Of a stretch of DNA of 64,000 bases, positions 40,730 through 64,000 are shown piece by piece (position 1 is the first letter of the stretch; every line of letters begins with the position of its first letter). The DNA lies in assembly GCA_020631215.1 (NCBI GenBank), contig JAHDHS010000002.1, positions 1-64,000 on the forward strand, in the 5' to 3' direction. A program made the translations under genes and the position numbers. The notes under the pieces are model-generated. The model was not told the origin of the DNA and did no database searches. It saw nothing but the letters and a program-made list of their open reading frames with translations. Source of the stretch: Hellea sp. (lineage in GTDB: Bacteria > Pseudomonadota > Alphaproteobacteria > Caulobacterales > Maricaulaceae).

Positions 40730-42019
40730 ATGACCAAATCTTCCTATTTCAAACCTGCCACCATCGCGCTACATACGGGCTATACGCCAGAGAGTGATCA
40801 TGGTGCGCGGGCCGTGCCTATATACCAAACAACGTCCTATGCGTTTGATTCTGTCGAAGGGGCATCGTCTTTGTTTAATGTCGAGCAAGGCGGGCATATA
40901 TATTCGCGTATCTCCAACCCAACCGTTGCAGTGTTGGAACAGCGTCTTGCCGCACTCGAAGGCGGAACGGGCGCGATCTGCACGGCGTCAGGCATGTCAG
41001 CATTATTTGCGACATTTATCACGCTGTGTTCTGCCGGAGATCACATCGTCAGTTCGGAACAAATCTATGGGTCGACGGCGACGACATTGCGCTATACTTT
41101 GAAACGCTTTGGTATCACGACTGACTTCGTTGATATCAATGATCCCAAGGCGCTGAAAGCCGCGATCAAACCCAATACGAAATTGGTTTTTTGTGAGTCG
41201 ATCTCAAACCCCGGTATGCAGGTGTCTAACCTGCCGGAGATATCGAAGATTGCCAATGAGGCGGGCGTTCCGGTCGTTGTTGACGCAACCTTTGCCACGC
41301 CGGCCCTTAACCGCCCGATTGAGCATGGCGCGAATATCGTCGTGCATTCCATCACCAAATGGATTGGCGGTCATGGCGCGGCGATTGGCGGCTGTATCGT
41401 TGATGGAGGAAACTTCAATTGGGGGAATGGCAAATTCCCTGAAATGACCGAGCCTTACGCCCCGTTTCATGGTATGAAATTTTGGGAAGAATTTGGCCCG
41501 ACAGCCTTCGTCATGAAAATCCGAAGTGAGGCTATGCGAGACCTCGGCGCGGCACTATCGCCGCATAATGCGTTTCTAATCTTACAAGGGGTGGAAACTT
41601 TAAACTTGCGTATGCAGAAACACGTTTCCAATACGGCGACCTTAAGAGACTGGCTGGCGCAGCAAGACGGCGTGACATGGGTGCGCCATCCTGAAGATGA
41701 CGCAAAACCATTCGTTGCGGAAATGTTCCCGGACGGGGCCGGCTCTATGCTTTGCTTTGGGGTCGCAGGCGGACGAGAGGGCGGCGCAGCCTTTATCAAA
41801 ACGGTAAGCCTTGCCAGCCATTTGGCCAATGTCGGAGACAGCCGGACGCTGGTTCTGCACCCCGGCAGCACTACCCATTCACGCTTGACAAAAACTGATA
41901 TGGAAGCCGCAGGCATCAATGAAGATCTGATCCGGGTTTCTGTCGGGCTGGAAGACATCAAAGATATACAGGCGGATTTTGCCAAAGGCCTAAAAGCCGC
42001 AATACGGGCAGCAGGATAA
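40730..42019 (+). CDS. metY: O-acetylhomoserine sulfhydrylase family enzyme (Cys/Met metabolism PLP enzyme)
   Basis: 429 aa. The PLP-binding Lys is in [13 protein letters not shown]. The opening [27 protein letters not shown] and the long insert before [19 protein letters not shown] are typical of MetY. It makes homocysteine (or methionine from methanethiol) from O-acetylhomoserine. Its stop overlaps the start of the next gene by one base (TAATG), tying it to the catabolic operon downstream, so it could capture a sulfur or methylthiol product there; this is inference. No SAM riboswitch is visible in the 43-base gap before it. Confidence 0.9.
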
Positions 42020-42825
42020 TGGAACTGACGATCAACAATGCACCGGTCTATGTGGCCACGGGCGGCAAAGACTTTAATCCGAAACTGCCGACAGTGCTAT
42101 TTCTACATGGCAGCGGCGGGGATCACCGAACATGGGCACTGCAAACGCGCTGGTTTGCCTATCATGGCTATTCTGTCCTGGCGCCGGATTTGCCGGGCCA
42201 TAGTTTGTCCGGAGGCGAGGCCTTTACCTCAATCGAGCAAAGCGGGCCATGGCTCTCAGACTTTATGGAAGCAGTCGGGGTGAAATCCGCTCATGTCGTG
42301 GGCCATAGCCAAGGTTTCCTATCAGCGCTTGAACTCGCCAGGACAGCGCCAGAAAAATTGATGTCCATCACGGCGATTGGTACGGCGGCAGCTATTCCGG
42401 TCAATCAGGCTTTGATTGATACTGCGAAGGCCAATTCAGATAAGGCGGCACAGATGATGTGTAATTGGGGGTTTGGCCCGGACGCGCATTTGGGCAATAG
42501 CTCTGTGCCGGGCATGCAGCCCATCGCCATATCCCGCGCCATCATGAGCCGCAATCCATTGGCCGCGGATTTACAAGCTTGCGCAGATTATAAAGGCGGG
42601 GCCGATGTGGTCGCATCTTTAAGCGTACCAGCACATTGTATTCTCGCAAGCGCTGACAAAATGACACCCGTAAAAGCCGGTATGGCCTTGGCGGAAAGTC
42701 TGGGCGTTACGCCAACTATCATTAAAGGCTATGGCCACATGTTACCCTTAGAGGCCCCGAAACAAACCCTGACCGCTTTGCGGGCATTTATCGAGATGGT
42801 TCAAACGAAGAGAGCAGCCGCATGA
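42019..42825 (+). CDS. Alpha/beta-fold hydrolase
   Basis: 268 aa. Oxyanion region LHGSGGDHRTWA (about 29-40), nucleophile elbow GHSQG with Ser97, acid candidate in CILASADKMTPVKAG, and His in GYGHMLPLEAP. It is a serine esterase, thioesterase or lactonase of the general alpha/beta-hydrolase family; specificity is not visible. Start overlaps the metY stop by one base and its stop overlaps the next gene by four (ATGA), so it is made together with a beta-oxidation set and may hydrolyse a CoA thioester or ester intermediate. Confidence 0.82.
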   Translation: MELTINNAPVYVATGGKDFNPKLPTVLFLHGSGGDHRTWALQTRWFAYHGYSVLAPDLPGHSLSGGEAFTSIEQSGPWLSDFMEAVGVKSAHVVGHSQGFLSALELARTAPEKLMSITAIGTAAAIPVNQALIDTAKANSDKAAQMMCNWGFGPDAHLGNSSVPGMQPIAISRAIMSRNPLAADLQACADYKGGADVVASLSVPAHCILASADKMTPVKAGMALAESLGVTPTIIKGYGHMLPLEAPKQTLTALRAFIEMVQTKRAAA

Positions 42826-45110
42826 GCATTAAAAGAGTTGCCGTTATTGGCGCAGGTACTATGGGCGCTGGCATAGCCGGGCAGGCCGCCAATGCTGGCT
42901 GCGATGTCTTATTGCTAGACCTGCCAAGTGAGGGTCCGGATGTGGACGCATTGGCGCAAAAGGGATTGGACCGGATTTCCAACCCCGGCAATCCCGGTAT
43001 CCTATCACTGGATATTGCAGATCGGATCACAGTCGGCAATATCCGGGATGATTTTGATAAGCTGTCTGATTGCGACTGGGTTGCGGAGGCTATTTTAGAA
43101 CGGCTTGATTTAAAGAAAGACCTCTACAAGAAATTGGATTCTGTCTGCAAAGACGATGCAATTATTTCATCCAATACCTCGACGATCCCGATTAAATTAT
43201 TGGTCGAGGATATGCCTCTGGAATTCCGTAAACGTTTCGCCATTACGCATTTCTTTAATCCGGTTCGGTTTATGCCATTGCTGGAACTTGTCGCGGGTGA
43301 TGATACGGATCCGGATATCATGAACCTGCTTCACCGCTTTTGTGATGAGCAGCTGGGTAAGGGCGTCGTGGTGTGCCGGGACACGCCCGGATTTTTGGGT
43401 AACCGCGTCGGTTGCTACGCCATCCAAGCGGCCCTTCACACGGCCAATGATATGGGCTTGAGCCCGCAGGAAGCAGACGCAATTTTTGGCCGTCCGATGG
43501 GAATCCCGAAGACGGGTGTATTTGGCCTTTATGATTTAATTGGCATTGATCTGATGTCCGACGTGGCCAGTAGTTTGGTGTCTATATTGCCGGATGGGGA
43601 TGCGTTTCATGAGGTAGGCACCAAATTGGCCCTCATGGAAAATATGATAGCCAATGGACAAAAAGGCCGAAAAACGGGTGCTGGTTTTTACCGAATTCAT
43701 GATGGCGGGAAAGAGGTTATAAATCTTGAAACGGGCGAATATGAGCCCGTCCAAAACCTTCAAATTCCTGTGGTCCTGAAAGCCGAGAAGGAGGGCATTA
43801 TCCATGTCCTCGAAGATAAGACGAAATATGGGGACTATGCTTGGAAAGTCATGTCCAATGTCCTGTCTTATGCGGCGTCGCTCGTGCCCGAAGTCGGGGA
43901 CAATCCAGTTGCGATAGATGACGCTATGAAGATGGGCTATAATTGGATCAAAGGCCCGTTTGAGCTAATCGACGAGATTGGCGCAGATTATCTAATCGGG
44001 CGGTTGGAATCAGAGCAACGTCCTATCCCGGAATATCTGCGGCAGGCTGCAGGTTCATCTTTCTATAATGGCTTAAAGGTGTCTGTCTTTGGTGGTGGTT
44101 GGCAGGCTATACAGCGCCCAGACGGCACCTTACGATTTAATGATCGAAAGAAAGAATTATCCGCATCAGAGTCCAATTCGGAGGCCAGTTGGTATGATGT
44201 CGAGGGTGTGGCAGTAGTCGAATTTCACTCCAAGGCAAATGCGCTTGGTGCGGGCTCCATGCAGATATTGGAAGCGGCTTTAAGAGCTGTCAAATCAAAT
44301 AAGATGCGCGGTTTGATTGTTCATAATGATGCGCAGCATTTTTCATGCGGGGTGAATTTAAATGCCGTTCGGGCGTTTTTCGAAGCCGGGGACTGGGACG
44401 GTTTGGATGCATTTTTGAATCATTTCCAGCAGACTGTGCACAGCATGGCTTCCGCCGAGTTTCCAGTGGTCGTCGCGCCAGTGGGTTTATCTCTAGGCGG
44501 GGGCTTTGAGGTGGTCTTACATGGCAAGCATGTGATTTGCCATGCGAATTCTAATATGGGTCTGGTCGAGTCCGGTGTCGGGGTCATCCCGGCGGGCGGA
44601 GGCTGTAAAGAAACGCTTTACCGATGGATCGAGAAAAAAGATGGAGACGTCACGGCTGCGGCCTGGGAAGCCTTTATGTCGCTGGGCTATGGCAAGACGG
44701 CCAGCTCTCCGCTTTTAGCACGCGATTTAGCCATGTTACGTCCGAATGATCGGTTTGAGAACAACCGGGATCGTTTATTTTCAGAAGCCATGGTGGCCAT
44801 TGCTGAAGGCTCTGAGCAAATGTCATTTACACGCGATCCTATCGCCATGGCAGGCCGCGAAGAATATCGTAAAATGATTGCCTGGGCTGAGGACATGCAG
44901 TCAAAAGGCAAGCTCTACCCCCATGATGTCTTTGTTTCGACTCAGATTGCTGAGATCGTAACGGGCGGCGATATTGACCCCGGGACCGAGTGGAGTGAAC
45001 AGGATTTGTATGATGCGGAACGGCGTGCCTTTTTGCGTTTGGTGAAAACAGAGGCGACGCAAGAGCGTATCCGCACGCTACTGGATGACGGGAAAGCTGT
45101 GAGGAACTAA
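42822..45110 (+). CDS. FadN-like 3-hydroxyacyl-CoA dehydrogenase / enoyl-CoA hydratase fusion
   Basis: 762 aa. The N-terminal NAD domain (about 3-190) opens VAVIGAGTMGAGIAGQAA. The 3HCDH C-terminal domain follows (about 195-410), with a CRDTPGFLGNRV link. A crotonase domain comes last (about 455-680), containing HFSCGVNLNAV and SLGGGFEVVLHGKHV. This order (dehydrogenase first, hydratase second) matches Bacillus FadN and is the reverse of E. coli FadB. In the crotonase part an acidic Glu lies in GLVESGVGVIPAGGG. It should oxidise and hydrate acyl-CoA intermediates. A carnitine-like beta-hydroxy substrate is also conceivable. Overlaps its neighbours by four and one bases. Confidence 0.88.
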   Translation: MSIKRVAVIGAGTMGAGIAGQAANAGCDVLLLDLPSEGPDVDALAQKGLDRISNPGNPGILSLDIADRITVGNIRDDFDKLSDCDWVAEAILERLDLKKDLYKKLDSVCKDDAIISSNTSTIPIKLLVEDMPLEFRKRFAITHFFNPVRFMPLLELVAGDDTDPDIMNLLHRFCDEQLGKGVVVCRDTPGFLGNRVGCYAIQAALHTANDMGLSPQEADAIFGRPMGIPKTGVFGLYDLIGIDLMSDVASSLVSILPDGDAFHEVGTKLALMENMIANGQKGRKTGAGFYRIHDGGKEVINLETGEYEPVQNLQIPVVLKAEKEGIIHVLEDKTKYGDYAWKVMSNVLSYAASLVPEVGDNPVAIDDAMKMGYNWIKGPFELIDEIGADYLIGRLESEQRPIPEYLRQAAGSSFYNGLKVSVFGGGWQAIQRPDGTLRFNDRKKELSASESNSEASWYDVEGVAVVEFHSKANALGAGSMQILEAALRAVKSNKMRGLIVHNDAQHFSCGVNLNAVRAFFEAGDWDGLDAFLNHFQQTVHSMASAEFPVVVAPVGLSLGGGFEVVLHGKHVICHANSNMGLVESGVGVIPAGGGCKETLYRWIEKKDGDVTAAAWEAFMSLGYGKTASSPLLARDLAMLRPNDRFENNRDRLFSEAMVAIAEGSEQMSFTRDPIAMAGREEYRKMIAWAEDMQSKGKLYPHDVFVSTQIAEIVTGGDIDPGTEWSEQDLYDAERRAFLRLVKTEATQERIRTLLDDGKAVRN

Positions 45111-46735
45111 TGACGGTAGCATATGATCAACTTCCGAAAACCGACGCAAATTACGTTCCCTTATCGGTCGCGAGCTTTCTAGATCGAGCGGCCAATATCT
45201 ATCCGCATCGCGAAGCGCTGGTCTATGAAGATCGTAAGTATAATTGGTCAGAGGTTAGAGGGCGATGCCGTCAACTCGCATCGGCCCTGAATGCGCGCGG
45301 CCTAGGAAAGAATGATACGGTATCGGTGTTGCTGCACAACACATCTGAGATGTTTGAATGTCAGTTTGCCGTGCCAATGGCGGGCTGCGTCCTTAACTCG
45401 ATAAATACCCGTCTGGATGCTGATACAATCGCCTATATTATTGATCATGGCGAAAGCCGGTTGATGATTGTTGATCGTGAACTTTATCCCGTCGCCGTCG
45501 CTGCGCTTGAAATTAGCGAGTTGAACCCGGATGTAATCATTGTCGATGACAGTTACGCTGATACTAAGCCGGATGTGCCTGCGAATGTTCTGACCTATGA
45601 AGCTTTTATCGCGGATCAAAGCCCTGATTATGAGCCGGAGCCCTTAAAAGATGAGTGGCAGGCCATGGCGCTGAATTACACATCCGGGACAACAGGCCGA
45701 CCCAAAGGCGTGGTTTACCACCACCGCGGGGCTTATCTGATGGCGATGGGAACGGTGGCCAGCTGGGCTTTGCCCATGCATCCGCGTTACCTTTACACGG
45801 TGCCGATGTTTCACTGTAATGGCTGGGGCCATGCCTGGACGATGACCCTGATGGCGGGCACAATTATTTGTCTACGCCATTTCTCCGCTGAGAAATTTTT
45901 TGAACAGGCCGGCCTGCACAATATAACTCATTTTGGCGGAGCTCCGATCATTATGAATATGCTCGCCAATGCACCGGATGCGGTTAAACCTGATTTTGAT
46001 CATACCGTCAAAGCGATGACGGCTGGTGCGCCGCCGCCTGCCAGCGTGCTCGAAGCCATGGCCAATATGGGATATGAAATCATGCATGTTTACGGCCTGA
46101 CCGAGACTTATGGCCATGTCTTACAAGCTGCTCCGCAAGAAAGCTGGGCAGCGGAATCGATTTCGAGGCAAGCCGAGCTTAATGCGCGTCAGGGCGTTGT
46201 TTTTACAAATCTGGAAGAGGCAAAGGTCATAGGAGAGGATGGTCAGCCTGTCCCGCATGACGGAGAGAGCATGGGAGAAATTGTCATGCGCGGCAATGTC
46301 GTCATGAAAGGCTATCTGAAAGACATGGCAGCCACGGACGCAGCATTCAAAGATGGATGGTTCCAGTCGGGCGATCTAGGTGTGGTCTATCCGGATAGCT
46401 ATATCCAGCTCAAAGACCGGGCGAAGGACATCATAATTTCAGGCGGTGAAAATATCTCCTCGGTTGAAGTCGAGAACACACTTTACAAACATGACGCGGT
46501 CGGCGAGGCGGCGGTCGTCGCCATGCCGGATGAGAAATGGGGCGAAGTGCCTTGCGCCTTTGTCGAGCTTAAAGGCGAAGCGACAGAGGACGAGCTGATC
46601 CATTTCTGCACCGAGAATATGGCACGGTTCAAGCGGCCGAAAAAAATTGTCTTCGGGGAATTGCCTAAAACGGCCACGGGCAAAATTCAGAAAAAGGTCC
46701 TACGCGAACAGGCCAAAGAGCTGGGCTCAGATTGA
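45110..46735 (+). CDS. Acyl-CoA synthetase (AMP-forming ligase)
   Basis: 541 aa. ANL-superfamily motifs: P-loop YTSGTTGRPKGV (about 188-199), MHVYGLTETYG (A5), FQSGDLGVVYPD (A7), the hinge KDRAKDIIISGGENIS (A8), and the C-terminal catalytic Lys in TATGKIQKK (A10). It activates a carboxylic acid to its CoA thioester via an acyl-AMP. It resembles medium-chain or DmdB-type ligases; the acid is not known. It begins within the stop of the FadN-like gene and lies in an operon with two hydratase activities, so it probably starts CoA-dependent breakdown of the substrate side chain. Confidence 0.9.
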   Translation: MTVAYDQLPKTDANYVPLSVASFLDRAANIYPHREALVYEDRKYNWSEVRGRCRQLASALNARGLGKNDTVSVLLHNTSEMFECQFAVPMAGCVLNSINTRLDADTIAYIIDHGESRLMIVDRELYPVAVAALEISELNPDVIIVDDSYADTKPDVPANVLTYEAFIADQSPDYEPEPLKDEWQAMALNYTSGTTGRPKGVVYHHRGAYLMAMGTVASWALPMHPRYLYTVPMFHCNGWGHAWTMTLMAGTIICLRHFSAEKFFEQAGLHNITHFGGAPIIMNMLANAPDAVKPDFDHTVKAMTAGAPPPASVLEAMANMGYEIMHVYGLTETYGHVLQAAPQESWAAESISRQAELNARQGVVFTNLEEAKVIGEDGQPVPHDGESMGEIVMRGNVVMKGYLKDMAATDAAFKDGWFQSGDLGVVYPDSYIQLKDRAKDIIISGGENISSVEVENTLYKHDAVGEAAVVAMPDEKWGEVPCAFVELKGEATEDELIHFCTENMARFKRPKKIVFGELPKTATGKIQKKVLREQAKELGSD

Positions 46736-46747
46736 TAGGATATAGAC

Positions 46748-47551
46748 ATGCCTGAGACGCGCGAATTACTATCGATAGAACGGGTTGATCCGGGCATTTT
46801 ACGGCTTACGCTCAATGATATCGGACGCCGCAATGCGTTATCCGAAGCGATGCTGACACAAATTCACAGCGCTATCACAGAGGCAGCCGATAATACCGAT
46901 ATACGCGTTATTATCATTGCAGCGAATGGTCCGGCTTTCTCCGCTGGGCATGATTTGAAGGAACTGTCGCGCGCTCGTGAGAACGCAGATGGCGGGCGGG
47001 CCTATTTTGCGCTCATTATGGGAAAATGCTCACAGCTCATGCAGGCTATGGTCAATTGTCCAAAACCAGTGATCGCCGAAGTTGATGGTGTAGCCACAGC
47101 CGCCGGATGCCAATTGGTGGCCAGCTGCGATTTGGCAATCGCGTCTACTGAGGCGCAATTCAGCACTCCGGGCGTAAATATCGGTTTGTTTTGTTCGACA
47201 CCCATGGTGGCGCTTTCCAGAAATGTTGCACGCAAACACGCCATGGAGATGTTGTTAACTGGCGATATGATGTCCGCTGAGCATGCTGCTGAAATCGGCC
47301 TGATAAACCGGGCTGTCCCTTTAAAAGATCTGACTGAGACCGCCACGAACTTGGCTCAGAAAATTGCAAGCAAATCTTCCATGACCCTCTCGACAGGTAA
47401 GCGCGCTTTTTACAGCCAAGCCGAGATGTCACTCGCGCAAGCCTATGATTACACGGCCCAAGTGATGGTAGAAAATATGTTAGCCCATGACGCGAAGGAG
47501 GGTATTGGCGCCTTTATCGAAAAGCGGCAGCCTGTTTGGAAAGATGAGTAA
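46748..47551 (+). CDS. Enoyl-CoA hydratase/isomerase family protein
   Basis: 267 aa crotonase fold. First oxyanion segment FSAGHDLKELSR (about 64-75), second ATAAGCQLVASCDLAIAS (about 117-134). At the catalytic Glu positions of classic hydratases I see GVNIGLFCSTPM, so one Glu is not obvious, as in ECHDC3-like members. It is the last gene of the five-gene metY-linked operon, 12 bases after the ligase. It ends nine bases before the opposing HD gene. Confidence 0.85.
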   Translation: MPETRELLSIERVDPGILRLTLNDIGRRNALSEAMLTQIHSAITEAADNTDIRVIIIAANGPAFSAGHDLKELSRARENADGGRAYFALIMGKCSQLMQAMVNCPKPVIAEVDGVATAAGCQLVASCDLAIASTEAQFSTPGVNIGLFCSTPMVALSRNVARKHAMEMLLTGDMMSAEHAAEIGLINRAVPLKDLTETATNLAQKIASKSSMTLSTGKRAFYSQAEMSLAQAYDYTAQVMVENMLAHDAKEGIGAFIEKRQPVWKDE

Positions 47552-47560
47552 AGCTAAGGT

Positions 47561-48145
47561 TTAGGTTCGTTTACCAGGCGGATGAATGACAGCTTCATCC
47601 CAAGCCGGGCGGCGGAAAACCTCCTCTAGGACAGGCCTGAAATGCTCAAGCGGGAGTGTATCATAATCTGGATCAAAGCTGGTTTGATCCCAATCTCGGC
47701 AAAACTTCTCGGCCACATCAAAATGAGGGCTGTCTTTGTATTTTTGCCGTTCTTCCGGATTCAAGCCAATCTTATCGGCATAGTATTTATATTGGAAAAT
47801 CCCGTGATGTTGCACCGTCCATGAACATTCCTCGCGCACATAGGGCTTGATGATGGCTGCGGCAAGGCTGTCATGATTGTAAGGCGCGAGGTCGTCGCCG
47901 AGGTCATGAATTAAGGCGGCAACAATCCAGTCCGCATCGGCGCCGTCCCTTTCTGCGCGGGTCGCGGTTTGCAGGCTGTGTTCAAGCCGGTCAATTTTAT
48001 ACCCGGCCAATGAATCGCGCAGCCCTTCCAATCGCGCCATAATGCGGTTGGGTAGATCATGGGCAAACTCACGCTCATGCTTGTCTAAAAAGGCATAATC
48101 TTCGGCCGTGCCATCTTCCATGCGGGTAAAGGAGACTGTTTTCAT
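47561..48145 (-). CDS. HD-domain protein resembling PhnZ/TmpB-type di-iron oxygenases
   Basis: 194 aa. His56, then His80-Asp81 (in ALIHDLGDDLAP) with the same 24-residue spacing as His34/His58-Asp59 in PhnZ; further candidates His91 (YNHDSL), His113/His114 (VQHHGIFQ) and Asp151 (FCRDWDQTSFDP). The number and order of these residues fit a di-iron site rather than a plain phosphohydrolase. It starts exactly where the BBOX-like gene stops, so the pair are co-translated. The TmpA/TmpB pair, which hydroxylates and then cleaves 2-trimethylaminoethylphosphonate to glycine betaine, has this make-up. The alternative is a general HD hydrolase. Substrate assignment is inference. Confidence 0.7.
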   Translation of the reverse strand: MKTVSFTRMEDGTAEDYAFLDKHEREFAHDLPNRIMARLEGLRDSLAGYKIDRLEHSLQTATRAERDGADADWIVAALIHDLGDDLAPYNHDSLAAAIIKPYVREECSWTVQHHGIFQYKYYADKIGLNPEERQKYKDSPHFDVAEKFCRDWDQTSFDPDYDTLPLEHFRPVLEEVFRRPAWDEAVIHPPGKRT

Positions 48146-53793: not shown

Positions 53794-53794
53794 A

Positions 53795-55376: not shown

Positions 55377-56329
55377 GTGGTCAATCTCTCTGCCAGAGCT
55401 GGGATGTCGACGCCGCGCTTTTTGGCCTGCTTGAACATCAACAACGTATCTTCGATGCCTTGCTCCAATGAACGATAGGGCGAGGCGCCGATTAATTCGT
55501 CAAGCCGGCCATCATCGGGCTCTGCCGGAAAGGGCATGGGGTCGCCTGAAAAACTAATTTCGGCACTCACTTCGGTTTTCGCAGTGATCATGTCTAGAAT
55601 AGATGCCGTGTCAGCGGGTGTGCCGTTCATTTCAAAAACGGGCGCGCCTGTTTGGTCTTTGGAGACCGCGCCGATAAAACGGAGCGCGGCGTCTTCAACA
55701 TGGCAGAATGTCAGGGGGCCTGAAAAAGGTACGTTATAAGGTTTGCCCTCCAATGCGGCGAGCATTGCGACGCTTGGGGCGGCGCTCATGCCTTGGTCGC
55801 GGCCGGGGCCATATATGATGCCGGGGCGAATGCCAATGCTGGGCACTTGCCAGTCCTGCCAATACACGGCTGCCATCTGCTCGCCGCAAATCTTATGCGC
55901 CCCATAAAGTGTGGCAAGAAATTCATTGTCCCCCATGGCGGGCGCTGCGACTGAGCTGGCATAGGAAAGACGTTTGATCCCGGCTTGCCTGGCGGCCTCT
56001 AATATATTGATGCTGCCCATCACATTGACGCGGGTGCTGCCCACCGGGTCAGCTTTGCAAAACGGGACCTGCAACGCGGCAAGGTGAATAATGGCAGAGA
56101 TATCATATTGCGCGATAATCGCCGTCAGACGGTCATAATCGGTGATGTCTCCTGTCTCCCAAACCACATCCTCTGCGCCTTCCATGATCAGATCAAGACG
56201 CGCCCGATTATCAGTCAAATCATAGACGACCGGTTTTGCACCCATTTCGGTCAGGCATTTAACCGTCCATGCGCCTATGCAGCCGGCAGCACCGGTCACC
56301 AGAATGGATTTGCCTGCAAAATCAGTCAC
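55373..56329 (-). CDS. NAD-dependent epimerase/dehydratase family protein
   Basis: 318 aa extended SDR. NAD motif TGAAGCIG (about 12-19), DLTDNRARL with the Asp that prefers NAD, and the catalytic pair YGAHK (YxxxK, about 143-147). The middle PGIIYGPGRDQG is conserved. It acts on a nucleotide sugar or, as in many catabolic operons, oxidises a small hydroxy compound. The latter fits better here because no sugar pathway gene is near. Start overlaps the 2OG oxygenase stop by one base. Confidence 0.85.
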   Translation of the reverse strand: MTDFAGKSILVTGAAGCIGAWTVKCLTEMGAKPVVYDLTDNRARLDLIMEGAEDVVWETGDITDYDRLTAIIAQYDISAIIHLAALQVPFCKADPVGSTRVNVMGSINILEAARQAGIKRLSYASSVAAPAMGDNEFLATLYGAHKICGEQMAAVYWQDWQVPSIGIRPGIIYGPGRDQGMSAAPSVAMLAALEGKPYNVPFSGPLTFCHVEDAALRFIGAVSKDQTGAPVFEMNGTPADTASILDMITAKTEVSAEISFSGDPMPFPAEPDDGRLDELIGASPYRSLEQGIEDTLLMFKQAKKRGVDIPALAERLTT

Positions 56330-57315
56330 TATGCGCCGCCAATACGATCACGAAATTTCAACAGCGGCGCGAGGGCCGCATCGATCTGCGCACTCAGCGC
56401 TTCACCTTCATCATGTAGGCTGATCTTATCCACCAAAGCTTCCAATCTGGCCGAGGCCCGCCAAGCTTCATGACGCGCCAGCTCAGCCTTCAGGCCTGGA
56501 TCGTCCCATCCCGCCATGTTTACAGAATTGGTCGCATCCGCCGCATCAGCTTGTGCGACGACAAAGGACGGAATCACGGTGATACGTTCGGCCTTGTGTT
56601 TCATGCGGCAGGCGCGGTGAAAGATCATATTACCCTGCTGCATAAAACCATATCCACCGGTCGGGAACGGGACAGTGATAACGCGATCTGCGGGGAGGTC
56701 CGTATCCTTACCTTCTTCCCCGTCAATGCCCAACAATTTTTGCCCTTCCATTTTCGTGCCGTGAAAATACTGAAACTCTCCCCCCTCAAACTTTGTGGGA
56801 TCAGACAGCATCATCACAATATCAAAGGCAACTGAATCGACATGCCATGTGTCGACCGCTTTGGTGATGTCTTCGGGCGCGTAATTCACGCCGCAAGCGA
56901 CAGCGGGTACGGAATGGCGTGCCAGTTTCACGCTTGCAATTTTTGAGATATGCTCGGCAAGTTCAGGGCTGTCACAGAAATCTTTCATAAATTGCGAGCG
57001 ATAGCCCGCGCCCCGCACATATGACCCAAGACGGTTGACGCCAGTGCCGACACTGACATTGCGGTTGTCATACATTTTCAGGCAAATATCCCGCATGGCT
57101 GCGAGGCCTTCATCGGATAAAATGCGAAAGGCACTGCTTACGCCAAATTCTGACGGGCAGGCTTTGATGGTTTCTGCGTCGTAACCCAGCTCTGATAGTG
57201 ATGTCACTGCCTGCGGCATTTCTAGCGCCAGATGTCTGGCAGCGCTAAATTCCGGTTCATTTTCCAGCTTTAAATATTCCGGTGGTCTGTGATTTGGAAA
57301 AGGCAGGGTTTGCAT
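56329..57315 (-). CDS. 2-oxoglutarate/Fe(II)-type oxygenase
   Basis: 328 aa. A HxD...H facial triad is visible: His158 and Asp160 (DTWHVDSVAFD), His233 (NMIFHRACRM), with Arg244 (KAERITVIPS) as the 2-oxoglutarate carboxylate partner. The GGEFQYFHGTK strand between them is typical of cupin-like oxygenases. It probably hydroxylates the substrate or removes an alkyl group with O2. I do not recognise a named subfamily. It is the second such oxygenase of the cluster, besides the BBOX-like one. A 112-base gap separates it from the esterase gene upstream, the only sizeable gap in that half of the array. Confidence 0.75.
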   Translation of the reverse strand: MQTLPFPNHRPPEYLKLENEPEFSAARHLALEMPQAVTSLSELGYDAETIKACPSEFGVSSAFRILSDEGLAAMRDICLKMYDNRNVSVGTGVNRLGSYVRGAGYRSQFMKDFCDSPELAEHISKIASVKLARHSVPAVACGVNYAPEDITKAVDTWHVDSVAFDIVMMLSDPTKFEGGEFQYFHGTKMEGQKLLGIDGEEGKDTDLPADRVITVPFPTGGYGFMQQGNMIFHRACRMKHKAERITVIPSFVVAQADAADATNSVNMAGWDDPGLKAELARHEAWRASARLEALVDKISLHDEGEALSAQIDAALAPLLKFRDRIGGA

Positions 57316-57427: not shown

Positions 57428-58291
57428 TTACGCCAACAAAGCCGCGATCTGGCGTAAGGTTTTATGACGATCAGGCACGGGATAGAACATCCAGTAATGA
57501 CCATATTCGGGCTCTGAGATTAGGCTTCGAAGTTTGCCTTCGGCTTTGGCCTTACGTGCAAATTCCATGATTTCAGGATGCAGAATGTCTTGCGCGCCTG
57601 TTATGATATGCATCTTGGGCAAGCTGGAAATATCCGCCAGGGCGGGGCTGATCAGAGGGTCGGTTCTGGCCATATCTCCTGCAAAAACTGTGACGATAGG
57701 TTCTAATCCATATGGCGTGATGAGAGCCTCGTAATCATCATCCTTTGTGATCGGCTCGCGTCTCTCGGTCAGGTCCAGCCAGGGAGACCAGAGAATGAGA
57801 GGGTTGGTGATGGGCATTCGCCGCTCTGCCGCTTTTTGCGCCAGCATGAGCGCCAAATTACCGCCAGCGCTATCTCCGCCCAGATATATATTGTCCATCC
57901 CAAAAGTTTCAACGACCGAACGAAAATGACGATCCGTCCAATCATGAATTTCTGTCGCAACAGAACCAGGCGCAAGTGGATAGTCTGGTAGGATAATCGT
58001 CATATTTGCGTGATCACATAATTCAGTAAAGCTCATCCAATGGGCGGGCTGGAGTCCATACACAAAGCCGCCGCCATGTTGATGCACGTAAACTGTCTCT
58101 GTAGGCCCGCTAGTTGGGTGTATCGTCCAGATATTTTGTCCGTCAAATTTAGAGCGTTTAAAACGGGCCTTATATTTTCCTTTTGGTAAGCTATGGCGCG
58201 GATTGCCGCGTGCGGGGTCCTTGATCATATTGTTGCGATAGCGTGTTGACCGTAGGATGAATTGGACGGTTTTGTAACGAAAACTGCTCAT
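57428..58291 (-). CDS. HSL-family alpha/beta hydrolase (esterase)
   Basis: 287 aa. Oxyanion motif HGGG at about 72-75 (VHQHGGGFVYG), nucleophile Ser141 in GDSAGG, Asp candidate in ITGAQDILHPE and His in YGHYWMF. This is the hormone-sensitive-lipase branch of carboxylesterases, typically acting on short acyl or aryl esters or lactones. Its start shares one base with the stop of the Baeyer-Villiger-type monooxygenase, and such oxygenase-esterase pairs usually act in sequence: ketone to ester, then ester cleavage. Confidence 0.87.
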   Translation of the reverse strand: MSSFRYKTVQFILRSTRYRNNMIKDPARGNPRHSLPKGKYKARFKRSKFDGQNIWTIHPTSGPTETVYVHQHGGGFVYGLQPAHWMSFTELCDHANMTIILPDYPLAPGSVATEIHDWTDRHFRSVVETFGMDNIYLGGDSAGGNLALMLAQKAAERRMPITNPLILWSPWLDLTERREPITKDDDYEALITPYGLEPIVTVFAGDMARTDPLISPALADISSLPKMHIITGAQDILHPEIMEFARKAKAEGKLRSLISEPEYGHYWMFYPVPDRHKTLRQIAALLA

Positions 58292-59721
58292 CAGGTAATC
58301 TCGTAATCTGCCCAGATCGGGGTTTTCATGCGGCGTTTATATTCCAGCGTGGAGCCGGGCCAATTGCGGGTAATTTTATCACCGTCCTTATACCAGCTGG
58401 CATCGACCTTGTTCCAATTTAGCCGACTTAACCGCTGCTGCATTTCTCTGTCATATTCAATTTCGGCAGATGGTTTAACGCTGATAATGTTCGGCGTACT
58501 CCTTGTCATTAATTGTAGAATATAGCTTACTTGCTGCTCGATTTTGAAGACGATGGAAGTATGACCTGAATTTGTATTGGGGCCGTAAAGCATAAACATA
58601 TTTGGAAAGCCGGCCGTTATGACGCCATGATAAGCTTTGGCTCCGTTTTTCCAATGCCGATCCAGAGTAAGCCCGTTCTTGCCCCTAACAACAATGTCTT
58701 TCAGGAAGGGCCTAGTTTGAAACCCCGTCGCAAAAACAACAACATCATGCGCACGGTTTACGCCATCCGTCGTCTGAATGCCTGACGCGTTAAACCTGTC
58801 TATGGCTGCGGTGACATTCTCAACATTGTCGCGTGCAAGAGTAGGATAGATCTTATCCGAGAGCAGAATACGTTTGGCACCAATCGGATAAATTGGAGTC
58901 ATTTTCTTTCTGAGTTCAGGGTCTTTGATATATTTTTTGAGCGCGTATTGATTCCATGCTTTGGCAAAGCTGCTTGTGATTGGATTGCCTTTAATCGTTG
59001 GCCAGACAAAAAATTCACCTTGTGCCCAGAGGTTAAAGCGGGCGATTTGTGCGAGGAAGGGCAAGCGTCTGCCGAGCCATTTTTCCAATCTCGTATAGGC
59101 TCTGTCGGGTTTTGGTAAAATCCAATTGGCGCTGCGGTGATAGACTGTTAGTTTTTGGGAGATTTTCGCCAGTTCGGGGATGAGCTGTATCGCGCTGGCG
59201 GCATTGCCGATGACCGCAATGTTTTTATCTCTGAGTTCTACAGAATGATCCCATTGCGCGGAGTGAAAGGCTATGCCCTTAAAACAATCGCGGCCTTTGA
59301 ATTCAGGTGTCTTGGTATGGTGAAGCTGTCCCACTGCAGATACTAAAAATCGGCACTGTAAGTGGTCGCCATTTCGCAGTCCCACTTCCCAATGATCATG
59401 TTTCCAAGTTGCCGAAACCACGTCCGTTCTAAATCTTATTCGCCGCCGCAAATCAAAGGCGTCTGTGAAATCGTTCAGATAGTTTAGGATTTGCTTCTGT
59501 TTGGCCCATTTGAAATCCCAAGTCGGATTTGGCCAAAACGAATAAGAATAGTAAGCGCTGGCAATATCGCACTCCGCCCCCGGATAAGTATTTTCCCGCC
59601 ACGTACCGCCAACACTTTCGGCTTTTTCCAGAATGAGAAAATCATGGCGTTCCGCCATGGACAGTTTGGCCCCCATACACAAGCCGCCAAAACCTGTGCC
59701 GATAATTATCGTTTCAATCAT
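58291..59721 (-). CDS. Baeyer-Villiger-type flavin monooxygenase
   Basis: 476 aa. FAD site GTGFGGLCMG (about 8-17), GGTWRENTYPGAECD, the BVMO fingerprint F147-x-G149-x3-H153-x3-W157, second Rossmann motif IGNAASA, and a GFQTRPF near the C-terminal third. It inserts oxygen next to a carbonyl (or oxidises a heteroatom) with NADPH and O2. It is the first gene of the eleven-gene minus-strand array, and its 217-base upstream region is shared with the divergent BCCT transporter. Confidence 0.9.
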   Translation of the reverse strand: MIETIIIGTGFGGLCMGAKLSMAERHDFLILEKAESVGGTWRENTYPGAECDIASAYYSYSFWPNPTWDFKWAKQKQILNYLNDFTDAFDLRRRIRFRTDVVSATWKHDHWEVGLRNGDHLQCRFLVSAVGQLHHTKTPEFKGRDCFKGIAFHSAQWDHSVELRDKNIAVIGNAASAIQLIPELAKISQKLTVYHRSANWILPKPDRAYTRLEKWLGRRLPFLAQIARFNLWAQGEFFVWPTIKGNPITSSFAKAWNQYALKKYIKDPELRKKMTPIYPIGAKRILLSDKIYPTLARDNVENVTAAIDRFNASGIQTTDGVNRAHDVVVFATGFQTRPFLKDIVVRGKNGLTLDRHWKNGAKAYHGVITAGFPNMFMLYGPNTNSGHTSIVFKIEQQVSYILQLMTRSTPNIISVKPSAEIEYDREMQQRLSRLNWNKVDASWYKDGDKITRNWPGSTLEYKRRMKTPIWADYEIT

Positions 59722-59938: not shown

Positions 59939-61534
59939 ATGTCATCTGAAGCTGCGCCAGAGACACTCAAGGTCAATCTGCAAAAATCGGGTTTCTATGA
60001 AGGGTTTAATCGCTTCGTAGCGCTGGGCGCAAAATTGTGCGTTGGCTTGCTGATTTTGGCAGCGGCGCTTTTCCCCAAGGAAGCGGGAGCCGTTTTGCTC
60101 GACTGGCAAAACTGGACAACCGGCGCGTTTGGCGGGTGGTATATCTATGTCACAGCCTTTTACCTGCTCGTTTGTTTGGGGATTGCCCTTTATCCGCGCA
60201 CAGGCCGAATTAAGCTTGGCGGGCCGGCCGAGACCCCGGAATTTTCAAGATTTTCATGGTTTTCCATGATGTTTGGGGCCGGCATTGGTGTGGGCATGTT
60301 GACCTATTCAACCGCAGAACCGATTTTTCATTTCGCCAATAACCCGGATGTGATCAAAGGCCTGTCTGAAGGCCAAAACGCGAATAATGTTCGCAATGCT
60401 TATAAATGGGCCTTTCTACATTATGGCCTGACGCCATGGGCCTGTTACGGCATCGTTGGCATGGCCTTGGGGTATTTTTCTTATAACCGTAAGCAGCCTT
60501 TATCATTCCGGTCTTCGCTGACACCCCTATTCGGTATCAAGACTATGCAAGGCCCGGTTGGGCATGTCGTCGACATCATTGCGATCCTCGCCACAATCGT
60601 CGGGGTCGGGGTGACCATTGGGTATGGCGTGTCGCAATTTGCATCTGGCGTATTCAATATTACAGGGTTTTCCTGGATTAGCGCAGAGAATGGTAAGCCG
60701 ACTCTGTTGGCTCAGTTATTGGCGCTGATTATTATTTTGACGGCTTCGGTCTGGTCTGCCCTGACCGGTGTCAGCAAAGGGATTAAGTGGCTGTCCAATA
60801 TCAATATGGGACTATCTTTTTTCTTGCTCTTTTTCTTTGCGGTGTTTGGGGCGACGTTATTCGCATTTAAGCAGTTCTTCGTCACGATTTATGATTATTT
60901 CGCCGCTTTGCCTGCCATGTCCTTCACGGTGTGGAAAGACGGCGATCTTGCCAATTGGCAGGGCGCGTGGACCATATTCTATTGGGCGTGGTGGATCGCT
61001 TTCGCGCCTTTTGTGGGCTTGTTCCTGGCGCGCGTCTCAAAAGGGCGATCAATCCGCGAATATGTATTGGGGGCCATATTTGTGCCGTCGGTTATGGGCT
61101 TGACGTGGTTTGTTTTGGTCGGCGGGACAGCGATAAGCCTAGAGCTATCAGGCGTAGCGAATGGGGCGATTGTCAATGCTGATATCTCGGCGCAGCTTTT
61201 TAAAACTATAAATCTGGTGCTTAGCCCGTTCTTTGCCAAGTTAATGTCTTTTGTCATTGTCGTGCTTTTGCTGACCTATTTGGTAACGTCGGCTGACTCG
61301 GCCATTCTGGTGATCAATACGATTACATCTGTCGGCAATCGTGCCAAGGCTCGTGCCAAACATATTATTGTTTGGGGCGTTATATATATGGCGATGGTTG
61401 CGGCATTATTGACTGCGGGCGGAATGGATGCCTTGCGCTCGGCTATGATTATCGGGGCTTTGCCATTTTCTTTTGTGATGGCGCTGATGGCGATCTCACT
61501 CTTGAAGTCACTCATTTTCGACTCAGAGAGGTAA
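59939..61534 (+). CDS. BCCT-family betaine/carnitine/choline transporter
   Basis: 531 aa with about twelve membrane segments, AAGGGGA just before the start. Family segments are clear: FSMMFGAGIGVGMLTYSTAEPIF (substrate-site Gly-rich helix), HYGLTPWACYGI, and the signature TIFYWAWWIAFAPFVGLFLARVSKGRSIREY. Members import quaternary ammonium compounds with Na+ or H+, or exchange them. The Gly-rich motif AGIGVGM differs from the MGIG of BetP, so sodium dependence cannot be assumed. It is divergent from the catabolic array and followed by a TonB-dependent receptor, which together would bring the substrate across both membranes. Confidence 0.92.
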   Translation: MSSEAAPETLKVNLQKSGFYEGFNRFVALGAKLCVGLLILAAALFPKEAGAVLLDWQNWTTGAFGGWYIYVTAFYLLVCLGIALYPRTGRIKLGGPAETPEFSRFSWFSMMFGAGIGVGMLTYSTAEPIFHFANNPDVIKGLSEGQNANNVRNAYKWAFLHYGLTPWACYGIVGMALGYFSYNRKQPLSFRSSLTPLFGIKTMQGPVGHVVDIIAILATIVGVGVTIGYGVSQFASGVFNITGFSWISAENGKPTLLAQLLALIIILTASVWSALTGVSKGIKWLSNINMGLSFFLLFFFAVFGATLFAFKQFFVTIYDYFAALPAMSFTVWKDGDLANWQGAWTIFYWAWWIAFAPFVGLFLARVSKGRSIREYVLGAIFVPSVMGLTWFVLVGGTAISLELSGVANGAIVNADISAQLFKTINLVLSPFFAKLMSFVIVVLLLTYLVTSADSAILVINTITSVGNRAKARAKHIIVWGVIYMAMVAALLTAGGMDALRSAMIIGALPFSFVMALMAISLLKSLIFDSER

Positions 61535-61702: not shown

Positions 61703-61736
61703 TTGACTAATAGTAATGTTACTACACATGTATAAA
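61703..61736 (+). promoter_or_regulatory. Candidate promoter/operator of the TonB-dependent receptor
   Basis: TTGACT (61703-61708) is a good -35 element; the best -10 word TATAAA (61731-61736) is 22 bases away, longer than ideal. Between them lies the inverted repeat TAGTAA-TG-TTACTA (61711-61724), a plausible regulator site inside the promoter. The receptor starts 37 bases further on, after AGGGGAAA. The 238-base region upstream is otherwise AT-rich and without a gene. Confidence 0.45.
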
Positions 61737-61772
61737 AATCAACGCCAACACGTCTCAAAACAGGGGAAATCA

Positions 61773-64000
61773 ATGAAGAAGCAAAACCTACTCAGCTGCA
61801 CGGCCATCTGCGCGATCGCAGCAACCGGTATGCCAAGCACAGCTTACGCGCAGCTTGAAGACGAAGTCATCGTAACAGCGACCAAGCGCGCTGAAAGCGC
61901 CGCCGATATTCCGATTGCTGTCTCTGCTTTGGGAGAAGATACGCTTGATGAGTTGCGCGTCGATGTCTTCACAGATTATTTGGTGCAGCTTCCCGGTGTC
62001 TCAGCGGGTGGTTCCGGCCCGGGTCAAAACACCATCTACATTCGTGGTCTGGCTTCCACAACGCCAACTTTGTCAGTTGCCGGTGTTGCTGGCTTAGCGC
62101 CAAACGTCGCTTTTTATCTTGATGAACAGCCGCTCGCTCAGCCGGGCCGTAACCTGGATGTATATGCGGCTGACTTAGAACGCGTTGAGGTTCTATCCGG
62201 CCCTCAAGGCACGCTGTTTGGCGCGTCATCTCAGGCTGGTACAGTTCGGATGATTACGAATAAGCCGAAAATTGGCGTTGAAGAAGCCAAGTTTAGCGCG
62301 GGGACATCTTTCACCGATGGCGGTGAGATGAGTTATAAAGCCGAGGCTGTCTATAATGTCCCTGTGACTGAAAATGCGGCGCTTCGTGCTGTCGTTTATT
62401 ACGATCATCAAGGGGGTTACGTTGATAACGTGCCGGGCACGATTGATATGAGTCAATCAGCTCGCTATCGTCAAGAGGGCACTGTGCGCTCAAATGGTGT
62501 GCCTGTGTCATCAGTGCGTGCCGGTTTCAGTACACTGTTTGACACAGATAATGACCCGACAACGCCAAATGTTTCCATTCCAGTGGATCTTTCGGGTATT
62601 ACCTTCTTGCAGAATGATAACTCCGACATTGCCGAAGATAACATTAATGACACAGATTATTTCGGTTTCCGTCTCTCCGGGCTTTATGAATTTACGGATG
62701 ATTGGTCTTTAAGTGTTGGTTACGCGCATCAGGAACTGGACTCTGACGGGGTTTTCTACTCAAATCCTGATCTCGGCGATTATAACGTCAATATCTATGA
62801 AGAATCATTCATTGAGGATGAGTTTGACAACGTAAACTGGACGTTGAAAGGCCGCCTTGGCATGCTGGACGCGCTATACACGGGTGCATTTACGAAGCGG
62901 AAGACGGATCAGCGCATTGATTACACAGACTATCTCTATGTGGCGCAGTATCTACCTTACTATATCTGTGATTATTACAATGCGTATTACACTAATGACA
63001 GTCAGGTGGATTACAGCGATCCAAACAATCCGGTTTACCGCCCGCAAGGTGGAACCTGTCAGGCACCAGCACTTTATGTGCCGTCCAGAAGCCGTACAGA
63101 GGTTCAGACACATGAATTGCGTTTCAACACACCGGCTGAAAAGCGCCTTCGCGCCACATTTGGCGGTTTCTATAGCGACTTGAAACTAAAAGAGCGCAAT
63201 GACTTCTCCTATGCGGGGGATGCCAATATCGCCTACGGCCCATTCCCGGATAACACATCCTTCCCGGATCAAGGTGATGGATTTTTCACTGACGCCGGGC
63301 CATACCCGGCAGATACACGCTTCCGGAATGATTTCCTACGGACAGATGAGCAGTTTGGTATCTTTGGTGAGGGTACATTTGATTTATCCGATCAATTCGC
63401 CTTGACGGTAGGTGCCCGTTATTATGACATCGAAGTGGATCTGAAAGGGACGGCGAACTCGTCATTCTGTAACCTCTTCTCAGGAATTGACCGGGATCGC
63501 TTTGGTACAGATGTAAATGATTTGTATGATGGCGATGGCAGCTACACATTTACACGTTCCTGTAATGATGCCGCTATTCAGACCTTCACATTGGATGACT
63601 CTCAACAAGACATTGAAAATGCGTTCTTGACGGCAGGTTTGGGTGCCAGCACGGCGGCAGCACAAGCCGCACGCGTATTTAATGAATTGCGTGCGCCTGA
63701 CACGGCAAATGCCAAAGGGACGATCTTCAAAGTCACGGGTACTTGGACGCCAAATGATGACATGTTGTTCTATGCAACATATTCACAGGGCTTCCGGCCT
63801 GGCTTGTTAAATCGTCCGGGAGGTGCAACGCAGGGTGACTTTACCGTCCCATTTGAACTTGACACAGATGATGTCGATAACTTTGAATTGGGTTGGAAGA
63901 CGACGCTGATGGATAATCAGTTGCGCTTCAACGGTAATGCCTTCTTCGTGGATATTAGCAAATTGCAGACCACAATTTTCGATCCGAGTATTGTGAACCT
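61773..64000 (+). CDS. TonB-dependent receptor, 3'-truncated by window edge
   Basis: The frame runs open from ATG 61773 to the window end (742 codons and more). Signal peptide to about residue 26 (TAYA), then a TonB-box-like DEVIVTATKR (about 30-39), the plug domain with QLPGVSAGG, TIYIRGLAS, DEQPL, and ERVEVLSGPQGTLFGASSQAGTVRMITNKP, followed by barrel strands alternating with loops. It resembles the large TonB receptors of Caulobacterales/Sphingomonadales that import diverse organic compounds rather than classic siderophore receptors. Placed after the BCCT gene, it is probably the outer-membrane route for the substrate of the catabolic cluster. Confidence 0.9.
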   Translation, partial: MKKQNLLSCTAICAIAATGMPSTAYAQLEDEVIVTATKRAESAADIPIAVSALGEDTLDELRVDVFTDYLVQLPGVSAGGSGPGQNTIYIRGLASTTPTLSVAGVAGLAPNVAFYLDEQPLAQPGRNLDVYAADLERVEVLSGPQGTLFGASSQAGTVRMITNKPKIGVEEAKFSAGTSFTDGGEMSYKAEAVYNVPVTENAALRAVVYYDHQGGYVDNVPGTIDMSQSARYRQEGTVRSNGVPVSSVRAGFSTLFDTDNDPTTPNVSIPVDLSGITFLQNDNSDIAEDNINDTDYFGFRLSGLYEFTDDWSLSVGYAHQELDSDGVFYSNPDLGDYNVNIYEESFIEDEFDNVNWTLKGRLGMLDALYTGAFTKRKTDQRIDYTDYLYVAQYLPYYICDYYNAYYTNDSQVDYSDPNNPVYRPQGGTCQAPALYVPSRSRTEVQTHELRFNTPAEKRLRATFGGFYSDLKLKERNDFSYAGDANIAYGPFPDNTSFPDQGDGFFTDAGPYPADTRFRNDFLRTDEQFGIFGEGTFDLSDQFALTVGARYYDIEVDLKGTANSSFCNLFSGIDRDRFGTDVNDLYDGDGSYTFTRSCNDAAIQTFTLDDSQQDIENAFLTAGLGASTAAAQAARVFNELRAPDTANAKGTIFKVTGTWTPNDDMLFYATYSQGFRPGLLNRPGGATQGDFTVPFELDTDDVDNFELGWKTTLMDNQLRFNGNAFFVDISKLQTTIFDPSIVN

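Follow-up and report, generated by a model that had tools for sequence, protein, structure and literature searches.

A region of the Hellea sp. contig JAHDHS010000002.1 is a gene island containing several separately inherited units. We read it, with moderate confidence, as a patchwork of modules feeding and using glycine betaine, in which separate feeders would converge on this compound and a corrinoid route would demethylate it. The island probably turns trimethylammonium compounds into glycine betaine and then strips the methyl groups.

Layout of the island

The window, the whole stretch of DNA analysed (64,000 nucleotides, positions 1 to 64,000 of the contig), contains these genes:

40048..40686, +: SAM-dependent methyltransferase-type gene (Pfam Methyltransf_11)
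40730..42019, +: OAHS-type PLP enzyme (O-acetylhomoserine sulfhydrylase), first gene of the OAHS-hydrolase-FadN-ligase module (TIGR01326, 563.5 bits, cut-off 495.1)
42019..42825, +: alpha/beta hydrolase, same module (PF12697, PF00561)
42822..45110, +: FadN-like 3-hydroxyacyl-CoA dehydrogenase/hydratase (NF052272, 474.9 bits, below cut-off 999)
45110..46735, +: acyl-CoA synthetase, AMP-dependent ligase (PRK08162, 788.1 bits, cut-off 677)
46748..47551, +: enoyl-CoA hydratase (PRK08139, 393.5 bits, cut-off 313)
47561..48145, −: HD-domain protein, PhnZ/TmpB type (scores far under both family cut-offs)
48146..49294, −: TmpA/BBOX-type Fe(II)/2OG oxygenase, D-type clade (NF049936, below cut-off; structure 6npb, 191.5 bits)
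49409..51469, −: OYE-type flavoenzyme, paired with MttB (PF00724)
51460..52983, −: MttB-superfamily methyltransferase (PF06253)
53056..53793, −: SDR1, last gene of the five-gene module, order conserved (PF13561)
53795..54571, −: SDR2, five-gene module, start codon uncertain (PF13561)
54531..55376, −: FAH-family hydrolase (NF053535, below cut-off; structure 8gsr)
55373..56329, −: extended SDR, epimerase/dehydratase-like (PF01370, 103.5 bits)
56329..57315, −: putative Fe(II)/2OG oxygenase, first gene of the five-gene module (PF23169, under cut-off)
57428..58291, −: esterase, paired with BVMO (PF07859)
58291..59721, −: Baeyer-Villiger-type monooxygenase, BVMO (PF13738, PF00743; PDB BVMOs up to 224 bits)
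59939..61534, +: BCCT transporter (PF02028, 489 bits)
61716..64000, +: TonB-dependent receptor, extending to contig position 64502 (PF07715, PF00593)

Open frames of the kinds named in the preliminary description lie where it placed them, and family matches back them. Two details of the layout were corrected. The plus-strand set begins earlier, with the OAHS-type gene, which overlaps the next gene, and the TonB receptor runs beyond the window. Sulfotransferase, Ldh_2, ALDH and M19 genes follow 3′ of the receptor. The minus-strand array is as tight as described, with 7 of 10 junctions overlapping or at most 2 bp apart. The other three (114, 72 and 112 bp) coincide with module borders found by genome comparison. 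The modules are BVMO+esterase, 2OG-epimerase-FAH-SDR-SDR, MttB+OYE, BBOX-like+HD and OAHS-hydrolase-FadN-ligase. Because modules keep their gene order in other genomes, the array is more than chance. The OAHS-hydrolase-FadN-ligase order is the same in relatives, where the enoyl-CoA hydratase (46748..47551) was not seen with this module. In four other genome copies of the five-gene module, homologues of the 40048..40686 methyltransferase (66–68%; L125, L130, L134, L135) are flanked by SDR1 and BCCT.

The BBOX-like/HD oxygenase pair

TmpA and TmpB make up an oxidative phosphonate pathway of Leisingera caerulea, as described in excerpts of PMC9296572, PMC8177086 and PMC10574752. By sequence, the island pair is a TmpA/TmpB-like yet unusual oxygenase pair. 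In both systems a BBOX-superfamily 2OG oxygenase gene adjoins a PhnZ-type HD oxygenase gene, and glycine betaine is the likely product predicted for the island pair. The two genes are adjacent in the host and in 17 of 21 other family neighbourhoods (same strand, 3–23 bp apart); BBOX is solo in four (G032, G136, G076 and G087). HD-family genes are often found without BBOX (109 of 385 class genomes), and among 40 sampled HD loci BBOX was adjacent on the same strand in four and divergent in one. A distant BBOX-HD pair (L094) occurs together with OpuAC betaine-ABC and GCV_T genes.

The pair could simply be TmpA/TmpB, hydroxylating 2-trimethylaminoethylphosphonate (TMAEP) and splitting its C-P bond to give glycine betaine and phosphate. 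Among characterised families and structures, TmpA gives the BBOX-like protein its highest scores (317.7 and 191.5 bits), with 116 of 335 aligned residues identical. The HD protein is nearest PhnZ and TmpB in sequence and also in a low-confidence predicted fold. Genes for glycine betaine demethylation lie nearby, and another distant pair (L083) lies 64 bp from a gene for a PstS-type phosphate-binding protein. However, both proteins fall below the curated cut-offs (NF049936, 400, for TmpA; NF049941, 33.3 against 300 bits, and TIGR03276, 40.4 against 214.6 bits, for TmpB/PhnZ). The phosphonate-binding residues of TmpA are given as N187, N287 and R288 in excerpts of PMC9296572. The BBOX-like protein has D186, S285 and R286 at these positions, so one of three is kept. 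The N187 position is Asp in 28 of 28 D-type proteins compared. Among 23 proteins, the N287 position is Ser in 14, Pro in 6 and Asn in 3, and the R288 position is Arg in 21 and Lys in 2. The anion pocket of the island enzyme thus carries Asp and Ser where TmpA has two Asn. The hallmarks of TmpB and PhnZ are an H...HD...H...H...D metal motif and a YxxE loop (excerpts of PMC8177086). The island HD protein keeps the diiron-type motif (conserved candidates H56, H80-D81, H91, H113/H114 and D153) but has L46-A-G-Y49 in place of the loop, a change shared by aligned relatives. No phosphonate ABC transporter was recognised among annotated neighbours in the family; BCCT or OpuAC is found instead, and the island pair is linked to BCCT and MttB genes. 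We therefore regard identity with TmpA/TmpB as unlikely.

Gamma-butyrobetaine dioxygenase and carnitine pathways share the oxygenase superfamily, a BCCT and a CoA-linked module with the island. They differ in score (TIGR02409, 237.3 bits, below the cut-off of 414.75), in the replaced pocket Asn and in the HD partner. The aromatic residues F172, F176 and Y189 are kept at what we take to be the cage positions of TmpA. The D-type pair might form a new C-C-cleaving route on a hydroxy-betaine such as carnitine, yielding glycine betaine and glyoxylate, although we rate this as decidedly improbable. Here the cage, new Asp and kept Arg would hold the trimethylammonium, hydroxyl and carboxylate groups respectively, the oxygenase would hydroxylate beside the carboxylate, and the HD enzyme would cleave the diol in the manner of myo-inositol oxygenase.

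The five-gene module and the demethylation genes

The label of 2OG oxygenase stands in part. The Pfam match of this protein (PF23169) is sub-threshold (24.2 vs 26), but the HxD...H...R residues (W157-H158-x-D160, H233 and R244) are invariant in the 22 aligned homologue rows reaching those columns. The epimerase adjoins 2OG in all 12 other module copies, and FAH, SDR2 and SDR1 are present in 11 (one contig ends). FAH is closest, across its whole length, to L-2,4-diketo-3-deoxyrhamnonate hydrolase (8gsr, 260 bits; next structure, 159), at 317.2 bits against the NF053535 cut-off of 500.

This likeness suggests that the module, with the LDH2 and ALDH, may degrade a sugar acid unrelated to betaines, along the lines of the non-phosphorylated routes for L-rhamnose or L-fucose. 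The ALDH is likewise nearest 2,5-dioxovalerate dehydrogenase (490 bits, under the cut-off of 750). The neighbourhood argues otherwise. In place of a recognisable sugar transporter, kinase or lactonase, the neighbours of FAH are BCCT, the 2OG oxygenase and betaine genes. Of the 12 other copies of the module, 7 have BCCT nearby and 4 have DMGDH/Sox/MtgE genes. At two of nine loci, a distant homologue of the 2OG protein is encoded next to MttB. Eleven of 12 module carriers also have BBOX. A sugar-acid role is, in our estimate, a doubtful explanation.

The demethylation part of the island is of a known kind. Corrinoid glycine betaine demethylation by MtgBCD, with DMG and sarcosine steps, is experimentally described in excerpts of Mausz 2025 (PMC12478193), which also note several MttB copies per genome, as seen here. 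The preliminary description knew of no described pathway with the island's combination of genes; the glycine betaine part is already covered by that work. MttB, MtgC-, MtgD-, MetF-, DMGDH- and Sox-like genes occur either in the host genome or close to BBOX in related genomes. In the host, a DMGDH-SoxB-SoxA-like set starts at contig position 73013, and contig C69 carries MttB2, MtgD-, MetF-, MtgC-, FTHFS- and SoxBDAG-like genes (SoxB/D/G labels assigned by size and order). The C69 MtgC-, MtgD- and MetF-like proteins are 93, 91 and 82% to relatives' proteins with Pfam domains assigned. RACo and DUF1638 reactivation genes were not found within a 20 kb stretch of C69.

The window MttB belongs to PF06253 (733 bits). 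Its matches to 4yyc (584 bits) and to the glycine betaine methyltransferase 9yce (331 bits) indicate kinship only, glycine betaine being a candidate substrate. It differs from the MtgBCD route in its pairing with an OYE-type flavoenzyme, not DMG dehydrogenase, and in the feeder modules, which excerpts of PMC12478193 do not describe. The earlier TMADH-like label for the flavoenzyme proved loose. Its closest solved structures are the 2-enoate-reductase-type 'NCR' (226 bits) and 2,4-dienoyl-CoA reductase (198 bits), ahead of histamine dehydrogenase (152 bits) and TMADH (146 bits). The second Cys of the TMADH-type four-Cys iron-sulphur motif is Ala in all four sequences covering it, host included.

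Co-occurrence and separation of the modules

We compared 137 genomes of the host's family. The BBOX-type gene is present in 22, host included. It accompanies FadN in 15 of 16 carriers (hypergeometric p 7e-14), 2OG in 11 of 12 (p 1e-9), the window-type BCCT in 19 of 23 (p 1e-16) and OYE in 5 of 6 (p 4e-4), statistics that ignore phylogeny, most carriers belonging to two genera (g12 and g19). MttB is found in 20 of the 22 BBOX genomes vs 25 of 137 overall. In the 21 other BBOX neighbourhoods, MttB lies nearby in 16, sarcosine-oxidase-type genes in 16 (a SoxA-like one in 15), MtgC/MtgD-like genes in 9, DMG-dehydrogenase-like genes in 7 and BCCT in 7. The methylated-amine theme first proposed is thus supported. 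Homologues that fail to co-occur elsewhere, named at the outset as evidence against the proposed island, were not what we saw for the FadN, 2OG, MttB and BCCT modules.

Common descent together with a shared marine-type lifestyle might alone produce this pattern, with unrelated module substrates, and the concentration of carriers in g12 and g19 fits such an account. We consider it quite improbable: the host alone among 18 genomes of its genus has BBOX, MttB, FadN and OYE, and many genomes show physical linkage between the modules.

Since 11 of the 22 BBOX genomes lack the five-gene module, no single obligate pathway unites the modules. The modules also separate, with different neighbours in other genomes, and none of the 21 other BBOX neighbourhoods, several cut short by contig ends, holds a 2OG, FAH or BVMO homologue. 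BVMO, present in 69 of 137 genomes, is unassociated with BBOX (9 of 22 with it vs 60 of 115 without). The esterase adjoins BVMO in all three same-genus loci examined, in genomes without BBOX, and two of these genomes also lack the 2OG, FadN, BCCT and MttB modules. BVMO+esterase looks like a passenger module, so the proposed ring or ketone oxidation finds no support. A single pathway that draws on all these genes, BVMO and esterase among them, to break down one ring- or ketone-bearing trimethylammonium compound is highly improbable on these counts, although the eleven genes are tightly packed in one orientation and most modules co-occur with BBOX.

Our preferred reading remains the patchwork around glycine betaine. 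From conserved module composition, co-occurrence and linkage, which were observed, we infer the following biochemical steps. BCCT, and perhaps the TonB receptor, would import zwitterionic trimethylammonium compounds (step 1). The D-type BBOX-like oxygenase would hydroxylate one of these compounds at the carbon beside its anionic group (step 2). Following the TmpA/TmpB scheme, the HD diiron-type oxygenase would then break the bond at this hydroxylated carbon, releasing glycine betaine and the removed group, which would be phosphate in the case of a phosphonate substrate (step 3). The five-gene module may form a 2,4-diketo acid and hydrolyse it to pyruvate and a carboxylic acid, perhaps again glycine betaine, and the FadN/ligase module would process another precursor by steps of the beta-oxidation type. 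MttB, with a corrinoid set encoded elsewhere, would remove methyl groups, followed by DMG-dehydrogenase- and sarcosine-oxidase-type enzymes (step 4). BVMO+esterase would be a separate ketone-degradation pair that landed between modules. The import and dismantling of trimethylammonium compounds originally proposed fits this scheme, though more than one substrate is likely.

Glycine betaine is a major osmolyte whose precursors in seawater are, to our knowledge, incompletely known. If our reading is true, two conserved modules flag new trimethylammonium substrates and allow direct assay. If the pair did cleave a C-C bond, it and the five-gene 2,4-diketo-acid module would between them open several routes, so far undescribed, into the metabolism of glycine betaine. 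The island also cautions that a tight operon-like array can contain unrelated modules. According to excerpts of PMC10574752, studies already arrive at conflicting counts of phnZ-type genes because the homologues do not all act on the same substrate. The Asp/Asn difference, if it holds, would separate TmpA-type genes from look-alikes and so bear on ocean phosphonate-gene counts.

Module borders and co-occurrence across the family

The preliminary description's gene list was borne out by open frames and family matches. It placed the start of the plus-strand set one gene too late; the first gene is:

40730-42019, plus strand, O-acetylhomoserine sulfhydrylase-type gene (OAHS), preceding the hydrolase, FadN and ligase genes

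The TonB receptor extends to contig position 64502. Sulfotransferase, Ldh_2, ALDH, M19 and further genes come after it, and from contig position 73013 there are DMG-dehydrogenase-, SoxB- and SoxA-like genes. The contig has 133,533 bases, in an assembly of 2.55 Mb that is 96% complete. G+C of the island region is ordinary relative to the rest of the window, and no tRNA was found within the 64,000 nucleotides. In G139 and G087 the receptor and the TPR-sulfotransferase gene after it (window 61716 to contig 66569) again lie together next to the BBOX-like oxygenase gene (BBOX), and the pair also turns up next to the five-gene module described below. Elsewhere in the window (31712-35134), a 1140-residue autotransporter adjoins a GlnE gene.

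Seven of the ten minus-strand junctions overlap or are at most 2 bp apart. The three wider ones (114, 72 and 112 bp) divide the array into HD-BBOX, OYE-MttB (OYE being the flavoenzyme paired with MttB), SDR1-SDR2-FAH-EPIM-2OG (EPIM, epimerase-like extended SDR; 2OG, putative Fe(II)/2OG oxygenase) and esterase-BVMO. These borders recur in other genomes. Homologues were counted in 137 genomes of the host's family, the host included, under unequal E-value limits. P-values for the co-occurrence ignore phylogeny, and the carriers belong mostly to two genera (g12 and g19).

Carriers of each gene among 137 family genomes, and carriers that also have BBOX
Gene; E-value limit; carriers; with BBOX
BBOX; 1e-100; 22; -
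FadN; 1e-200; 16; 15
2OG; 1e-20; 12; 11
BCCT; 1e-150; 23; 19
OYE; 1e-150; 6; 5
MttB; 0.001; 25; 20
BVMO (contrast); 1e-100; 69; 9 (of 22 BBOX genomes, vs 60 of 115 others)

Within the host's genus, none of the other 17 genomes has a BBOX homologue. Across all 18, MttB, FadN and OYE likewise occur only in the host, and BVMO occurs in 12. An esterase resembling that of the window follows BVMO in the three same-genus genomes looked at, one of which (G004) has the 2OG and BCCT modules elsewhere. A single-protein scan of named genomes gave a match only in Alphaproteobacterium BAL199.

We compared 21 BBOX neighbourhoods besides that of the host, several of which end early at contig ends. HD lies on the same strand, 3-23 bp from BBOX, in 17, and no adjoining HD was found in G032, G136, G076 and G087. 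Sixteen contain MttB and 16 contain sarcosine-oxidase-type genes; the counts for other genes are 11 for FadN or ligase, nine for MtgC/MtgD-like genes, seven each for DMGDH-like genes and BCCT, and four for OYE. Homologues of 2OG, FAH and BVMO are found in none of these 21, several of them truncated as noted. In G073 (L056:9000-16539), G068 and G074, BCCT-BBOX-HD adjoins a conserved block that encodes an alpha-galactosidase (GH36) and a sodium symporter.

The region had been read as one pathway that imports and dismantles a trimethylammonium compound by ring or ketone oxidation and beta-oxidation. The genes themselves are confirmed, and the one-pathway reading is only partly supported. A single pathway including BVMO is rejected, because BVMO is not associated with BBOX, is missing from the 21 neighbourhoods compared (several of them truncated) and forms a pair with the esterase elsewhere in the genus. 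A DMSP-type pathway, which OAHS and the ligase might suggest, is not favored: the ligase matches a general acyl-CoA synthetase family at 788 and 3-(methylthio)propionyl-CoA ligase at only 313 of 822.

The oxygenase and its HD partner

When the window oxygenase is aligned with TmpA, the oxygenase of the TmpA/TmpB phosphonate pair, 116 of 335 residues are identical; for human BBOX the figure is 67 of 221. According to PMC9296572, TmpA contacts the phosphonate through N187, N287 and R288. The window protein has D186, S285 and R286 at these positions, with an offset of six in the solved-structure chain numbering that we infer from the alignment and the matching BBOX residues N191 and N293. The first pocket position is Asp in all 23 aligned sequences (the family set, with one from outside the family); the second is Ser in 14, Pro in six and Asn in three, and the third is Arg in 21 and Lys in two. 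A 31-sequence tree sets 28 proteins with this Asp (D-type) apart from TmpA, human BBOX and the distant L085 protein with local support of 0.88; these three are all Asn-bearing, and two of them are partial. An HD partner is present for 24 of the 28.

The HD protein retains the H...HD...H...H...D pattern, the metal motif that PMC8177086 gives for PhnZ and TmpB. At the site of their YxxE loop, described in the same paper, it instead has L-A-G-Y. The same replacement occurs in HD relatives without BBOX, and therefore is no evidence on its own for a trimethylammonium substrate. The HD family is found in 109 of 385 class genomes (E up to 1e-20); among 40 loci (one or two per family label) BBOX is adjacent in four and divergent in one. 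Since the family is common without BBOX and carries the same change there, its role is probably wider than this pairing. Most rows of an alignment of the window gene (47561-48145) with relatives L077-L116 have G[YF] at the YxxE end, and their neighbors vary. The predicted HD structure is of low confidence (57.9); Foldseek placed PhnZ and TmpB at the top (probability 1.00, TM about 0.5) and MIOX far lower, which weakly supports kinship with PhnZ/TmpB.

The pair most likely produces glycine betaine, by a hydroxylation and an oxidative cleavage. The cleaved bond could be C-P or C-C, and neither is strongly preferred: kinship speaks for a phosphonate, unlike the pocket and the transporters. Neighbors of distant BBOX-HD pairs give mixed hints. 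Near one (L094) lie OpuAC betaine-transport and GCV_T genes, another (L083) has a PstS-type phosphate-binding gene 64 bp downstream (L083:6791-8605), and a third (L079) has only general genes.

Glycine betaine demethylation and the five-gene module

Genes near BBOX in relatives, annotated via representatives, include a RACo-type reactivase, MTHFR, DUF5981, DUF1638, FTHFS, FolD and SoxA, with pterin-binding MtgD, B12-binding MtgC, homocysteine S-methyltransferase (MtgE) and DMG-dehydrogenase types; SoxB, SoxD and SoxG were named from size and order only. In the host, another contig (L005:4206-15941) holds a second MttB with MtgD-, MetF-, MtgC-, FTHFS- and SoxBDAG-like genes; this stretch showed no RACo- or DUF1638-like genes. 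A formaldehyde-activating-type (GFA) gene lies beside this set. The set agrees with the glycine betaine route of Ruegeria pomeroyi as given in PMC12478193, which also remarks that where a genome has several MttB copies, these may act on other methylated compounds.

After the window-type MttB, relatives have either a DMG-dehydrogenase-type gene or OYE. This alternation suggests that OYE performs the second demethylation step. Against this role, its sequence is closer to enoate reductases, and the second motif Cys is Ala. This iron-sulphur Cys is Ala in all four MttB-paired OYE sequences that cover the site (window gene, 49409-51469), possibly reflecting loss of the cluster or another ligand.

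The five-gene module was compared in 12 other fetched copies, two of them from one genome. EPIM follows 2OG in all 12, and FAH, SDR2 and SDR1 are present in 11, the remaining copy ending at a contig end. Nearby are BCCT (seven copies), the receptor (five), DMGDH/Sox/MtgE genes (four) and a methyltransferase like that at window 40048-40686 (four). BBOX and the module share a contig, some 20-36 kb apart, in G028, G069 and G136. Class-wide, 2OG homologues occur in 10 of 385 genomes including the host (E up to 1e-40). The fetched stretches of nine distant loci have no EPIM or FAH homologue near 2OG; MttB lies beside it in two, one of them also with Sox- and DMGDH-like genes. The predicted 2OG structure was unusable (mean pLDDT 39.7), and SDR2 had no match among solved structures at 1e-55, an uninformative threshold. 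FAH is nearest to L-2,4-diketo-3-deoxyrhamnonate hydrolase, with a score under that curated family's cut-off. The products of that hydrolase are pyruvate and a carboxylic acid; for the FAH of the module, the acid released may be glycine betaine.

A search of open-licence literature found no prior description of the BBOX-HD/MttB combination. The demethylation core is already known, and both the D-type oxygenase with its HD partner and the module of five genes are novel forms of familiar types.
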